A DNA stretch of 51,264 bases from Anaerolineae bacterium (lineage in GTDB: Bacteria > Chloroflexota > Anaerolineae > DRVO01), in assembly GCA_013178015.1 (NCBI GenBank), contig JABLXR010000025.1, forward strand, positions 1 to 51,264, read 5' to 3'. Below, piece by piece: positions 25,153 through 44,375 of the stretch; position 1 is the first letter of the stretch; each line of letters opens with the position of its first letter. Position numbers and translations under genes: made by a program. The notes beneath the pieces are model-generated. The model made no database searches and was not told the DNA's origin. It saw only the letters and a list, made by a program, of their open reading frames with translations.

Positions 25153-26181
25153 ATGCCGAAGGAGATGCGGGACGACACAGCCCTGATGGACCGCATCCAT
25201 GCCTATCTTCCCGGTTGGGACGTGCCTAAGACCGACAAGGCCCTACTGACCAGCCACTTCGGACTGGTGAGCGACTTCTTGAGCGAGTGCTTGACTCAGT
25301 TGCGGGCCGAGGATCGACTGTCGGCGGTGCACGGCCGCTATCGTTACGGAAGCGCTCTGAGCGGAGGGGACACTACAGCGGTCAACAAGACGGTCGATGG
25401 GCTGCTGAAGCTGCTCTACCCGGACAGAGAGATGCCTATCCCGGATGAGGACCTTGAGTGGGCCATACGGCTGGGCATGGAATGCCGCAGGAGGGTGAAG
25501 GAGCAACAGAAGCGGATCGGCAGCGCGGAGTTCCGCAACACTGCCTTCAGTTACCTGATAGGAGAGAGCGGGGTAGAGCGGTTCGTGGCGACGCCCGAGC
25601 TCTACAGCGAGAGCGCCATCGGAGGCGACCCCTTGCCCCCCGGCCAGGTCTGGGCCATTAGCTCAGGCGGCGTCAACGAGGGGTTGGGCCTGTACAAGAT
25701 CGACGTCACGGTGGGGCCGGGCTCAGGGGTGAGGATCGTGAACGTGCCGGCGCCCGGTCCCTTCCGCGAGAGCGTCAAGTGCGCGGAGCAGAACCTGTTT
25801 GGCCACGTTCGGGAGCTGGTGGGGGACAGGGATCCGCGGTTGCACGAGTTCACGGTGCAGTTGCGGGCTTTCGATGTGGCGCGCAGCGGGACAGATCTGG
25901 GAGTGCCGACGCTGCTGGCCTTGTGCGGCGCCTTGCTGGGAAGGAGCTTGAGAGGTGGCCTGGCGGTGGCCGGGGGACTGAACCTGGGCGGAGGCATTGA
26001 TCCACTGTACAACGCGGTGGGTGTGGCGGAACTGGCAGTGGAGAAGGGCGCAGTGACGCTCCTGGTGCCCATCTCGGCGCGGCGGCAACTCAACGAGCTG
26101 TCGGACGAGATGGCGGCAAAGGTAGACATCGTATACTACCGGGACGCAGCCGAGGCTCTTGCGAAAGCGCTGGCGGACTGA
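25153..26181 (+). pseudogene. brxL: C-terminal half of BREX protein BrxL (Lon-like), 5'-truncated
   Basis: BrxL is an AAA+/Lon-like component of BREX phage-defence systems, normally about 670-700 residues. This 342-residue frame matches only its C-terminal part: the post-ATPase region (AYLPGWDVPK, HFGLVSDFLSECLTQLR, AVNKTVDGLLKLLYPD, RRRVKEQQKRIGSAEFRNTAFSY) and the Lon-protease-like end (GLYKIDVTVGPGSG, FRESVKCAEQNLF, RDPRLHEFTVQLRA, GVPTLLALCGALLGR, GGLNLGGGIDPLYNAVGVAELAVEKGA). The AAA+ module with Walker motifs and the N-terminal domain are absent; the IS256 right end is 5 bases before the apparent ATG. As in other BrxL proteins the usual Lon catalytic Ser/Lys pair is not obvious. No other brx/pgl gene is in the window. 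Assignment is from memory of the family. Confidence 0.75.
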
Positions 26182-39573: not shown

Positions 39574-39864
39574 ATGGCTGTGGAAGTGAACCAGGTTGAA
39601 GGCAAGGACGTCGGTGACATCTTCATGTATGCCCTCAGCACCTGCGTGTGGTGCCGGAGGACTAAGGCCCTTCTGAACGAGTTGGGCCTTGCCTACCGGT
39701 ACGTGGATGTGGACCTACAGCAGGGCGAGGACCGCCGCAAGGTCATAGAGGACGTGAGCCGCTGGAACCCAGCCCGCTCCTTCCCCACCCTGGTGGTGAA
39801 CCAGGAGCGGGCCATAGTGGGGTTCGACGAGCGTGCCATCCGGGAGCTGGCCCAGGATGACTGA
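39574..39864 (+). CDS. Glutaredoxin-like protein
   Basis: 96 residues from ATG 39574, with GGAGGTGA upstream. Thioredoxin-fold oxidoreductase with active site C24-V-W-C27 in [13 protein letters not shown], cis-Pro region SFPTLVV and C-terminal [11 protein letters not shown]. This is the NrdH/glutaredoxin-like type. It overlaps the next gene by 8 bases, so the two proteins probably work together: the FTR-like reductase may reduce this glutaredoxin from ferredoxin or rubredoxin electrons, a pairing known in anaerobes. Confidence 0.88.
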
Positions 39865-40369
39865 GCCAACCCAGGTGACCGCCGAAGAGGTGGATCGGCT
39901 CTACGAGAAGCTCACTCGGGAGCAGGGTGCCTCCGCCTACTATCTCAACCCGGACGTGGCCTTCACCAAGGAGCTGGTGCACGGCCTGCTGGTCAACGAG
40001 AGGCGGTACGGCTATCAGAGTTGCCCCTGCCGACTGGCTTCGGGGATCGAGGAGGAGGATCGCGACATCATCTGCCCGTGCGACTACCGCGACCCCGACC
40101 TCAACGACTACGATACCTGCTACTGCGGCCTGTACGTGACCGAGCCCGTGGTGCGGGGGGAGAAGACCATTGGCTCCATTCCCGAGCGGCGGCCACCCCC
40201 TGAGGTCCGCCAGAGAGAACGAGAGGAGGCCCAGCGCCGGGGTATCGAGTCGCTCGCTTACCCCGTGTGGCGCTGTCGGGTGTGTGGCTACCTCTGCGCC
40301 CGGGATGAGCCTCCCGAACGGTGCCCCATCTGTAAGGTGAAGAAGGAACGCTTCGAGCGCTTCATGTAA
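39857..40369 (+). CDS. Ferredoxin-thioredoxin reductase catalytic subunit fused to a rubredoxin-like domain
   Basis: 170 residues from ATG 39857, overlapping the glutaredoxin stop. The FTR-beta cysteines are visible: CPC (56,58), CPC (73,75) and CYC (88,90), expected to bind a [4Fe-4S] cluster next to a redox-active disulfide. Spacing (14 and 12) differs slightly from the plant enzyme (16 and 8). After a charged helix (about 110-135) comes a rubredoxin-like zinc/iron domain, [10 protein letters not shown] ... [16 protein letters not shown]. The fusion suggests electrons pass directly through a built-in rubredoxin rather than the usual FTR variable subunit, which is absent. A large inverted repeat begins 11 bases after the stop. 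Confidence 0.87.
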
Positions 40370-40380
40370 CGCCTTGGGAC

Positions 40381-40577
40381 CTCACCGCAGAGGCCGCTGA
40401 GACCGCGGAGAACAACACACGAAGGACCCAGAAGAGCGCGGCTCGATGACGAGCGCCAGGCTTCGTGAGCTGCCGGCCTGGTTTCCTTGCCGTCTGCGCC
40501 TGTGCCCCTCCCCTGTGTTCCCCTCTCCCTTGCTCTCCTTATCTCCTGTCTGCGGTCTCTGCGGTCTCGGCGGTGAG
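40381..40577. repeat. Long imperfect inverted repeat (GCAGAGGCCG word)
   Basis: The left arm 40381-40411 and right arm 40543-40577 are near-complements: left CTCACCGCAGAGGCCGCTGA, right ending GGTCTCGGCGGTGAG. A smaller hairpin, GCGC-GGCTCGATGACGAGC-GC near 40436-40458, is inside. It begins 11 bases after the FTR gene. A 3' terminator-like or mRNA-stabilising structure of about 200 bases is likely. Confidence 0.75.
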
Positions 40578-40646
40578 CCTCCGCCCCGGCTTGCACAGGT
40601 CGTCTCCAACCCGCACAATCGTCGCAGTGATCTGCGGCGACCAAGC

Positions 40647-40721
40647 TTGTCCACAGGGTAGGTGCACAGCTCTGTGGATAGGCTCTGCGCTTATCCACAG
40701 CTTTACATGTAGTTATGCACA
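40647..40721. other. Cluster of DnaA-box-like sites
   Basis: Four 9-mers match or nearly match TTATNCACA within 75 bases: TTGTCCACA (40647-40655), CTATCCACA on the minus strand (40673-40681), TTATCCACA (40691-40699) and TTATGCACA (40713-40721). Two are perfect. A degenerate fifth (TGCACA) lies at 40663. The region is between the FTR gene and the UroD-like gene. It could be a replication origin, a DnaA-titration or regulatory site, or chance clustering; no dnaA, dnaN or rpmH is in the window. Confidence 0.55.
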
Positions 40722-40802
40722 GAAACCCCTTCGGGCCGGCATTCGCCGCAGCCAACGCCGCGATAGCGGTGAGGGTCTCCAGGCGGTGGGGAGGAGGCGC
40801 TG

Positions 40803-41918
40803 ATGGACCCAATGGAGCTGCCTGACAAGCTGGACTGGCCTCTCATCCAGCAGAGGTACGAGGCCTGGTGGGAGGGCGAGGTGGTGGACCGCGTCCCCAT
40901 CGCCGTGCATGCGCCCAAGGCCGCCCTGCCGGAGGAGGACGTCGCCCCGGAGCAACTGGTCGCCTACTGGACCGACCCCGAAACGGTGATGGAGCGCCAG
41001 CGGCGAGTACTGGCGGCCACTTACTACGGCGGCGATGCCTTCCCCGTCCTGCGGCCCGTGTCCGGGGGCATGGTGGCCGTCCTGGCCGCCTTCCTGGGGG
41101 CACCCCTCCACATCCTCAACCGTCAGACAACCTGGACCGAGCCCATCATCGCCGACTGGGATTACTGTCCCCCCCTGGGCTTCGACCCCACCAATCCCTG
41201 GTGGATGAAGGTGAGTCGTCTCCTGGAAGCCGGAGCGCGGGAGGCGCCCGGGTACGCTTACGTCTCCATCCCCGACCTCAACGGTCCCGGTGAGATCCTG
41301 GCCCGACTGCGGGGCGCCGAGCGTCTGGCCGTGGACCTGATCGAGCACCCCGGCGAGGTCCTCGCCGCCCTGCCCAGGATCAACCAGGCCTGGTACCGGT
41401 ACTGGCAGGCCTGCAACGGCATCATCCATCAGCACGTGGGCGGCTACGTGTTCTGGATGGGGCTGTGGTCGGAGCGCCCCGCCGTGGACTTGCAGACCGA
41501 CTTCTCCATCATGATCTCACGGGAGATGTTCGACCGCTTCTTCCTCCCCTTCGTTGAGGAGCAGACTCGCCTGGTCCCCCGGACGGTGTACCACCTGGAC
41601 GGGCCCGGCGCAGCCCGTCACCTGGATTCCCTGCTGGCCCTCCCCCGGCTCACCGCCATCCAGTGGGTGCCCGGTGCTGGCGCTCCGCCCATGAGCCGGT
41701 GGCTGCCACTGCTACGGCGGGTGCAGGCCCGGGGCAAGGGCCTGTGCCTGTTCTGCGAGCCCTGGGAGGTCTCGGTGCTCCTGAACGAGCTGGAGCCGGA
41801 GGGCCTCTTCCTCTCCACCAGCTGCGACTCGCCCGAGGAGGCAGACGCGCTAGTGGCGCTGGCGCAGCACGCCCATCGCCGACGAAGCTGGTTGGTGCCC
41901 GGTACGGAAGAGGAGTAG
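40803..41918 (+). CDS. Uroporphyrinogen decarboxylase-like (UroD/MtaA family) protein
   Basis: 371 residues from ATG 40803, preceded by GGGAGGAGG. UroD-fold protein; many such stand-alone members are cobalamin-linked methyltransferases rather than heme enzymes. Recognisable parts: WEGEVVDRVPIAVHAPK, DPTNPWWMKVSRLLEAG, YVSIPDLNGPGEILARLRGAERLAVDL, SIMISREMFDRFFLPFVEEQTRL, and a YHLDGPGAARHLDSLL segment that is common in this subfamily (His and Asp at the metal site). No corrinoid protein or reactivase is adjacent. It ends 9 bases before the YYY membrane protein gene. Confidence 0.78.
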   Translation: MDPMELPDKLDWPLIQQRYEAWWEGEVVDRVPIAVHAPKAALPEEDVAPEQLVAYWTDPETVMERQRRVLAATYYGGDAFPVLRPVSGGMVAVLAAFLGAPLHILNRQTTWTEPIIADWDYCPPLGFDPTNPWWMKVSRLLEAGAREAPGYAYVSIPDLNGPGEILARLRGAERLAVDLIEHPGEVLAALPRINQAWYRYWQACNGIIHQHVGGYVFWMGLWSERPAVDLQTDFSIMISREMFDRFFLPFVEEQTRLVPRTVYHLDGPGAARHLDSLLALPRLTAIQWVPGAGAPPMSRWLPLLRRVQARGKGLCLFCEPWEVSVLLNELEPEGLFLSTSCDSPEEADALVALAQHAHRRRSWLVPGTEEE

Positions 41919-41927
41919 GCTCCATCC

Positions 41928-44375
41928 ATGCTCCCCCTATCTGACGTCCTGGCCGCTTTGCGCTGGCTTCTGGTGCTGGAGGTGGTGGGGCTGGCCGGCT
42001 TGCCCCTGGCCCGCCGCCTCTTCATCCACCTGCCTGGCGCCAGCTTCGCCCTGGCCCGGCCCCTCGGCCTGTTGGCCGCCTCATACGGGCTCTGGTTGCT
42101 CTCCGCCCTGGGCTTCCTGCGGGTCGAAGCGACTGCCTTCGCCTTCTGCCTGGCCCTCGTCTTCGCTCTGGGATGGGCGATGGGCGGACGGCTACGCCCG
42201 CAGCCGGGGGAGGTGCAGCCGGCGGTCATCGCCGAGGCGCTGTTCGTGGGGGCCTTCGTCCTGGCGGTGCTGACCCGCTCGTACATGCCCGAGATCGAGG
42301 GCACCGAGAAGCCGATGGAGTTTGCCTTCCTCAATGCCTTGCTCCGTGACGGGTCGGTCCCTCCTCACGATCCTTGGCTTGCCGGCTACGCCATCAGCTA
42401 CTACTACTTTGGCTACCTCATGATGGCTGCCCTGGCTAGGCTCTCCGACGTGGCTCCAGCGGTGGCCTTCAACCTGGGCATTGCCAGTCTGTTCGCGCTC
42501 ACCTTGGCCGGCGCCTTTGCCGTGGTGCGGGGGATGGTGGCCCACCACCATCGCCGCTCTCCTGTAGGCAGGGTGCCCGTCTCGTTTGGACTGCTGGGCA
42601 GCGTCGCCTTGACGGTGATGGGCAACCTGGAAGGCTTCCTGGAGGTGATCCACTCCCGCGGGTTGCTGCCGGCCAGCTTCTGGCGCTGGCTGGACATCAA
42701 GGACCTGCTGGAGGCACCGCAGCCGGGGCCTTGGCTACCGGATCGCTACCTCTGGTGGTGGCGTGCGTCCAGGGTGATCAACGATCGCTCCCCCCTGGGG
42801 GAGCCTATAGAGGTCATCGACGAGTTCCCCTTCTTCAGCTTCCTCCTCGGCGACATGCATCCTCACGTCCTGGCCCTGCCCTTCGCCGCCCTGGCGGCAG
42901 CGCTGTGCGTAGAGTGGACGCTGCGCCTGCGGAGGGAGCCGGTGCCGAGGGCCCATGAAGCTTTCCTGGGCATGGCCGCCGTGTCGCTGGGGGCCCTCGG
43001 TTTCCTGAACACCTGGGACTGGCCTATCTACTTAGCACTGTTCGCCGCCGCCACCTGGATCGGTCTCCCCCATTCCGGCCGGCGCGGCCGGATCACCGTG
43101 GCGGTGGCTGTGGGCATGGGCCTCGGGGGTCTGCTGGCCTACCTGCCTTTCTACCTGTCGTTCCAGTCTCAGGCATCCGGGATTGTCCCCAACTTCCTGG
43201 GCCACACGCACCTGCACCAGTACCTGGTGATGTTGGGCCCGCTCTACTTTGTGGCCGCCGCGTATGCCGGCTGGCACCTGTGGCACCACGGGCGGGCGGC
43301 GCTGCGCCCTGCTGGTCTGTGGTGGGCTGCCCTCTTCGCCACCCCGTATCTCTTCCTGCTCGCCGTCGGCCTGGGACTGCTGGCGCTCCCCGCCGGTCGC
43401 CAGGTCCTGTCCCAGCTCCGGGGCATGGAGCAGTTGAGGCAGCTGGTGGGGAACGAACCGTGGGGCCAGGTCCTTGCTCGCTCCCTGGTCACCAGGCTCG
43501 GCTCGCCCTGGATGCTCCTGGCGGTCAGCGGCGTCATGGCGGCTGCCCTCGCCCGCCTGATCCGGAGGCCAGGCGACAACTCACCCGGGGAAGACCAGCA
43601 AGCCGCAGCCTTGGGTCCCCTCTCCCCTACCGCCGCCCTGAGCCTGGCCATGATGGCTCTCGCCCTGGGGCTCACTTGGGCGGTCGAGTTCGTCTACCTC
43701 CGGGATTACTTCGGCACACGGATGAACACCGTCTTCAAGTTCTACTATCAGGCCTGGGTGCTGCTGTCGCTAGGATGCAGCTACGCCGCGTACTGCCTCT
43801 GGAACCAGTGGCGCGGTTGGGCCCGGCTCACCTTCGCCGTTCCCGCGCTCGCTCTCCTGCTCATGGCTTTGGTCTACCCACCCCTCAGCCTGTGGACGCG
43901 CGCCGACGGGTTCTCCGGGAGCCCCACCCTGGACGGCACCGCCCACCTGGCTCGGCACCGGCCGGCGGAGTACGAAGCCATTGCCTGGCTACAGGCCAAC
44001 GTCCGGGGAACGTCCGTCATCGCCGAGGCGCCTGGCGGATCGTACACCGCCTTCGGCCGCGTCAGCGCCAACACCGGCCTTCCTACGATCCTGGGCTGGG
44101 ACTTCCACGAGATGCAGTGGCGGGGTACCTCCCGCTTCAGCGAACGTCAGGCAGACGTCGAGCGCCTCTACACCGCCCGTTCATGGGAAGAAGCGAAGGC
44201 AGTGCTGGATCGCTACAGCGTGGCTTACGTCTACGTGGGGCCGCTGGAGCGGCAGGCCTACGGGCCCGAGGCCGGCGCCCTTCTGGCTCAGCGGCTGCCG
44301 GCCGTCTTCGAGTCCACGGCGCCGGGCGACCCGGTCCTCATCGTGCGCGTGCCCGGCGTCACGATAGAACGATGA
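41928..44375 (+). CDS. Chlor_Arch_YYY / DUF2298 polytopic membrane protein
   Basis: 815 residues from ATG 41928 with GAGGAG upstream. Mostly transmembrane: at least 12 helices. The diagnostic AISYYYFGYLMMA motif is at about residues 153-165, with ADRSPLGEPIEVIDEFPFFSFLLGDMHPHVLALPF next, and a soluble C-terminal part (about 680-815) with AIAWLQANVRGTSVIAEAPG. The family resembles glycosyltransferase-C/PMT-like membrane enzymes and is reported mostly from Chloroflexota and archaea, which makes it the best lineage clue in the window. A role in lipid-linked sugar transfer is plausible but unproven. The gene ends inside the arm of an inverted repeat shared with the convergent HAD gene. Confidence 0.85.
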   Translation: MLPLSDVLAALRWLLVLEVVGLAGLPLARRLFIHLPGASFALARPLGLLAASYGLWLLSALGFLRVEATAFAFCLALVFALGWAMGGRLRPQPGEVQPAVIAEALFVGAFVLAVLTRSYMPEIEGTEKPMEFAFLNALLRDGSVPPHDPWLAGYAISYYYFGYLMMAALARLSDVAPAVAFNLGIASLFALTLAGAFAVVRGMVAHHHRRSPVGRVPVSFGLLGSVALTVMGNLEGFLEVIHSRGLLPASFWRWLDIKDLLEAPQPGPWLPDRYLWWWRASRVINDRSPLGEPIEVIDEFPFFSFLLGDMHPHVLALPFAALAAALCVEWTLRLRREPVPRAHEAFLGMAAVSLGALGFLNTWDWPIYLALFAAATWIGLPHSGRRGRITVAVAVGMGLGGLLAYLPFYLSFQSQASGIVPNFLGHTHLHQYLVMLGPLYFVAAAYAGWHLWHHGRAALRPAGLWWAALFATPYLFLLAVGLGLLALPAGRQVLSQLRGMEQLRQLVGNEPWGQVLARSLVTRLGSPWMLLAVSGVMAAALARLIRRPGDNSPGEDQQAAALGPLSPTAALSLAMMALALGLTWAVEFVYLRDYFGTRMNTVFKFYYQAWVLLSLGCSYAAYCLWNQWRGWARLTFAVPALALLLMALVYPPLSLWTRADGFSGSPTLDGTAHLARHRPAEYEAIAWLQANVRGTSVIAEAPGGSYTAFGRVSANTGLPTILGWDFHEMQWRGTSRFSERQADVERLYTARSWEEAKAVLDRYSVAYVYVGPLERQAYGPEAGALLAQRLPAVFESTAPGDPVLIVRVPGVTIER

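Follow-up and report, generated by a model that had tools for sequence, protein, structure and literature searches.

A conserved cluster of predicted DnaA-binding sites outside the candidate replication origin of an Anaerolineae bacterium

Introduction

Sites outside the replication origin oriC that control the initiator DnaA are known in detail mainly from Escherichia coli, and less from Bacillus subtilis and Streptomyces. In E. coli, datA and DARS2 use IHF, and the DARS core is defined by three DnaA boxes, of which box I is oriented opposite to boxes II and III (PMC5742627). For oriC, datA and the DARS sites of E. coli, it has been reported that the binding sites are retained while the spacers between them drift (PMC4585315). 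The deletion of six B. subtilis DBCs leads to early initiation (reviewed in PMC5295017, which also covers the DnaA-trio motif), and an analogous DnaA-box cluster of Streptomyces coelicolor is cited in PMC5742627. In the literature searched, no description of an origin signature was found for Anaerolineae.

Here, we describe a cluster of DnaA boxes in a stretch of 51,264 nt (hereafter the window), which is contig C25 of a 97-contig, 4.57-Mb Anaerolineae assembly (G000). We propose, with a probability of about one half, that this cluster is a non-oriC DnaA-binding locus whose main role is the control of initiation or the titration of DnaA.

Results

Box cluster and its surroundings

Two perfect DnaA boxes and two with one mismatch lie within exactly 75 bp of a 433-bp intergenic region (Table 1), as an earlier note on this DNA had reported. 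The note had also held that these are more boxes than chance would give. This proved correct for their density, whereas the total for the whole window is at chance level, with six boxes at one mismatch or less compared to 8.0 expected. It is therefore the clustering that stands out: not a single group of at least four boxes in 75 bp was seen in 40 Mb of sequence simulated with a first-order Markov model of the window's composition. Pattern searches of the whole genome returned only nine perfect boxes (seven for the reversed-pattern control). Five of these sit in two clusters, the window cluster (two boxes) and a cluster at C26:25597-25676 (three boxes), and the rest are single. The genome furthermore contains 77 TTNTNCACA sites, and three or more of them within 1 kb are found only at these same two places.

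Table 1. Position of the DnaA boxes and neighbouring features in the window.
Feature	Position	Strand	Remarks
Ferredoxin-thioredoxin reductase (FTR) beta-like domain fused to rubredoxin-like domain	39857..40369	+	Pfam PF02943, PF21349; upstream of cluster
Intergenic region containing the cluster	40370..40802		433 bp; from ORF list and sequence
Dispersed inverted-repeat element, 29-nt arms	40381..40577	.	Adjoins boxes; outside conserved core
DnaA box TTGTCCACA	40647..40655	+	One mismatch; not kept in sister species G001
DnaA box CTATCCACA	40673..40681	-	One mismatch; box 1 of conserved core, forms divergent pair with box 2
DnaA box TTATCCACA	40691..40699	+	Perfect; conserved core box 2
DnaA box TTATGCACA	40713..40721	+	Perfect; box 3 of conserved core, 22-bp step after box 2
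Conserved 49-bp core, (-)18(+)22(+)	40673..40721	+	From comparison with G001
371-aa protein gene	40803..41918	+	Downstream of cluster; 78% identical orthologue in G001
DUF2298 / Chlor_Arch_YYY membrane protein gene	41928..44375	+	Synteny preserved in G001

When the 433-bp intergenic DNA was used as a search query, it matched the dispersed inverted-repeat element only, and an Rfam search gave no credible match. The arms of this element, CTCACCGCAGAGGCCGCTGAGACCGCGGA, recur often in the same genome and in other members of the class, and the element may be MITE- or REP-like. The upstream FTR beta/rubredoxin-like fusion gene directly follows a glutaredoxin gene, and the two might form a redox pair. 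The downstream 371-aa protein has no match in Pfam, NCBIfam or the PDB sequences; several paralogues are present per Anaerolineae genome and relatives occur in archaeal MAGs.

Conservation of the core

Among the genomes compared, G001 is the only other species of the genus, and conservation at the genus level rests on these two species. Contig C283 of G001 carries the same run of five genes with 62-78% protein identity, and the search for the cluster in relatives, which the earlier note had suggested, recovered the three-box core between the same two genes, FTR and 371-aa, as CTGGGGATAG-N9-TTATCCACA-N13-TTATGCACA. Order, orientation and spacing are those of the window core. In a gapless alignment of the two cores, 26 of the 27 box positions are identical, compared to 8 of 22 spacer positions and 25-30% of the flanks. 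The box positions have been kept while spacers and flanks diverged, and we therefore conclude that the cluster is, to judge from this comparison, selectively maintained. In G002, which belongs to another genus of the same family and is 80% complete, the cluster is absent at both orthologous places, and its FTR gene has a different neighbour. A scan of genome contigs with the 371-aa protein found one close locus, L129 (Anaerolineae MAG AS06rmzACSIP_193), which is apparently the same contig as G001:C283, the match position and identity being equal, and it did not enter the comparison as an additional species. The DnaA protein of the genome under study has a full-length domain IV match (PF08299), and the cluster is very probably a conserved DnaA-binding site.

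A candidate origin on a different contig

The earlier note had placed the cluster away from dnaA, and indeed dnaA lies on contig C5, at about 88.8 kb, with one weak box near it. The cluster on C26 extends over positions 25341-25700 (approximately L013:7342-7700), where nine boxes at one mismatch or less are located; the genes on either side code for an ABC permease and an NfeD-type protein. Its steps follow the direct + 20 + 22 + array that is found beside dnaA in many members of the class. Beside the box TGTGGACAA, C26 carries the triplets TAG TCC TAG TAG, which correspond to DnaA-trios of the B. subtilis type, and their polarity agrees with that of the B. subtilis unwinding element. A cluster of the same type with identical 29/20/22/22 spacing and the triplets TAG TCG TAG TAG TAG adjoins the same ABC permease gene on contig C36 of G001. 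Due to the nine boxes, the class-type step pattern, the trios and the conservation in G001, the C26 cluster is a candidate for oriC and likely serves as such, in which case oriC would be unlinked to dnaA in this genus. We also tried to place the origin by the GC skew of C5, C25 and C26, but the skew is too weak for this purpose on all three contigs, which are moreover unordered.

Box pitch and dnaA-distal clusters in other Anaerolineae

The 22-bp pair TTATCCACA-N13-TTATNCACA is present in 44 of 396 genomes of the class, compared to a single site for the reversed control, and 13 of 30 inspected pair loci have dnaA within approximately 1.5 kb, often in a + 20 + 22 + array. Since the pair is this widespread relative to the control and frequently lies beside dnaA, the 22-bp pitch represents an origin-type DnaA geometry.

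Clusters of this pitch are also found far from dnaA. In genus g63 of family f15, a perfect (-)17(+)22(+) cluster is present in the four genomes that were read (G267, G229, G122 and G079), where it adjoins a methyltransferase gene, an ABC-ATPase gene, or both. The pair search detected the 22-bp pair in two further members, G249 and G198, the flanking genes having been read in the other four only. G229, G122 and G079 possess a separate dnaA-linked array with 20-21-bp steps. Similarly, G103 has a dnaA-distal array of five boxes with 21-22-bp steps in addition to its dnaA-linked array, and in G277 a dnaA-linked cluster is accompanied by a second pair at a distance of about 0.5 Mb. The distal array of G103 (L174; G103:C406:4322-4417) consists of five direct boxes between PAP2-like and aminotransferase genes. 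In genus g89 (G126 and G312), a conserved (-)18(+)44(+)22(+) cluster, which may be their oriC, lies near nuoE, and there are hardly any boxes at dnaA. In g63, G103 and G277, the dnaA-distal clusters of this pitch adjoin unrelated genes. Across the phylum, the divergent three-box pattern was found in 2 of 400 genomes, one of which is the genome studied here; this sample is listed without the cluster-bearing g63 genomes.

Discussion

From its boxes and their arrangement, the window cluster seems to belong best with the non-oriC DnaA-box clusters of the DBC type, to which it would add a new geometry and a new phylum. As in the B. subtilis DBCs and the S. coelicolor cluster, several consensus boxes form a small cluster outside oriC; it differs from these in phylum, genes and geometry. 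With E. coli datA, it shares a non-coding location outside oriC, conserved sites with drifting spacers, and the common direction of the two + boxes of the core, whereas the remaining core box is opposed. An IHF site between the boxes is needed in datA. At the window cluster, the only IHF-like match has two mismatches and overlaps a box, and no protein of the HU/IHF family (PF00216) was found in the genome, which is 95% complete, while the control search was positive in 9 of 14 genomes. The lack of a detected HU/IHF-family protein is unusual for bacteria.

A strict DARS or datA orthologue, acting on DnaA by nucleotide exchange or by IHF-dependent ATP hydrolysis, respectively, appears quite improbable. 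As in the DARS cores, three boxes with fixed, conserved spacing are present and one is opposed to the other two, here in the order (-)(+)(+). However, the DARS1 and DARS2 cores of E. coli, which we measured from NC_000913.3, are both + 14 - 12 -, that is, convergent, compared to the divergent - 18 + 22 + of the window, and identity with DARS was rejected due to this difference in polarity and spacing; that no HU/IHF-family gene was found speaks against datA. Of the earlier suggestion that the cluster could be a datA- or DARS-like regulatory or titration site, the general role is therefore possible, but the strict forms are not supported: the core geometry differs from that of DARS, and datA or DARS2 in the strict sense would require IHF, for which no gene was found. 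It is very unlikely that the window cluster is itself a replication origin, either oriC or a second active one, and this part of the earlier note found no support. The number of boxes and the 22-bp pitch do resemble origin arrays, and the divergent leading box has a counterpart on C26. Compared to the dnaA-linked arrays and C26, however, the window cluster has fewer boxes; the AT fraction per 40 bp reaches at most 0.33 in the right and 0.43 in the left flank, the sole 40-bp interval at 0.60 being the box core itself; and the best DnaA-trio match in the region comprises 2 of 7 triplets that overlap the boxes, compared to 3 of 7 and 4 of 7 at the C26 and C36 clusters. There is also no skew minimum at 40.6 kb, the skew being weak throughout the genome, and it is C26 that combines the hallmarks of an origin with conservation in the sister species. 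The earlier note had named an origin elsewhere together with unconserved boxes as the outcome that would speak against its reading; a candidate origin does lie elsewhere, but the boxes are conserved in G001. Chance or a decaying, functionless relic would fit the absence of the cluster from G002 and most of the more distant relatives, but is extremely unlikely given the simulated chance rate and the selective conservation in G001.

The strongest competing explanation is that the cluster controls the transcription of the gene downstream. DnaA could act as a transcription factor and the boxes as an operator for the 371-aa and YYY genes, coupling their expression to the level of DnaA-ATP, and we regard this as a serious possibility, short of probable. 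From the cluster to the start codon at 40803, which lies downstream, the distance is 82 bp (approximately 55 bp in G001), both species of the genus have the same gene at this place, and most of the g63 genomes read have a similar cluster just upstream of the ABC-ATPase gene. On the other hand, a scan of the cluster region for sigma-70-like promoters gave no hit, although this evidence is weak and the scan may not fit the phylum, and the neighbours of such clusters vary by lineage with no evident common function. G122 lacks the downstream ABC gene of its congeners, yet the cluster is retained beside the same methyltransferase gene.

For the preferred role in the control of initiation or titration, we envisage DnaA monomers at the divergent pair as well as at the direct box that follows after 22 bp, or about two helical turns. 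A small cooperative DnaA complex would form, with the same pitch as in the box array of the origin. Since an AT-rich unwinding stretch and a DnaA-trio are both absent from the cluster, the complex would not be expected to open the DNA. Most likely, it would store or modify DnaA and thereby tune when initiation takes place at the true oriC, in the manner of datA or of the B. subtilis and Streptomyces clusters. In this model, we infer that DnaA occupies the boxes, that it does so cooperatively and that initiation is affected.

One might speculate further that Anaerolineae possess an undescribed class of IHF-independent DnaA-control loci, which are built on the 22-bp pitch of the origin, recur in different families and tune initiation. 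Under the same tentative proposal, such dnaA-distal loci would often carry a divergent leading box and sit at different chromosomal sites depending on the family. Conserved sites of this kind in Chloroflexota, in a genome with no detected HU/IHF gene, would suggest that loci for the titration or control of the initiator occur widely and that IHF is dispensable for their function. A usable origin signature for Anaerolineae is also provided by the oriC candidates and their array spacing. A very dense arrangement was noted at a locus of the low-GC family f41 (L135; G260:C44), in which approximately 25 boxes are placed within about 800 bp, mostly in 11- or 21-bp steps.
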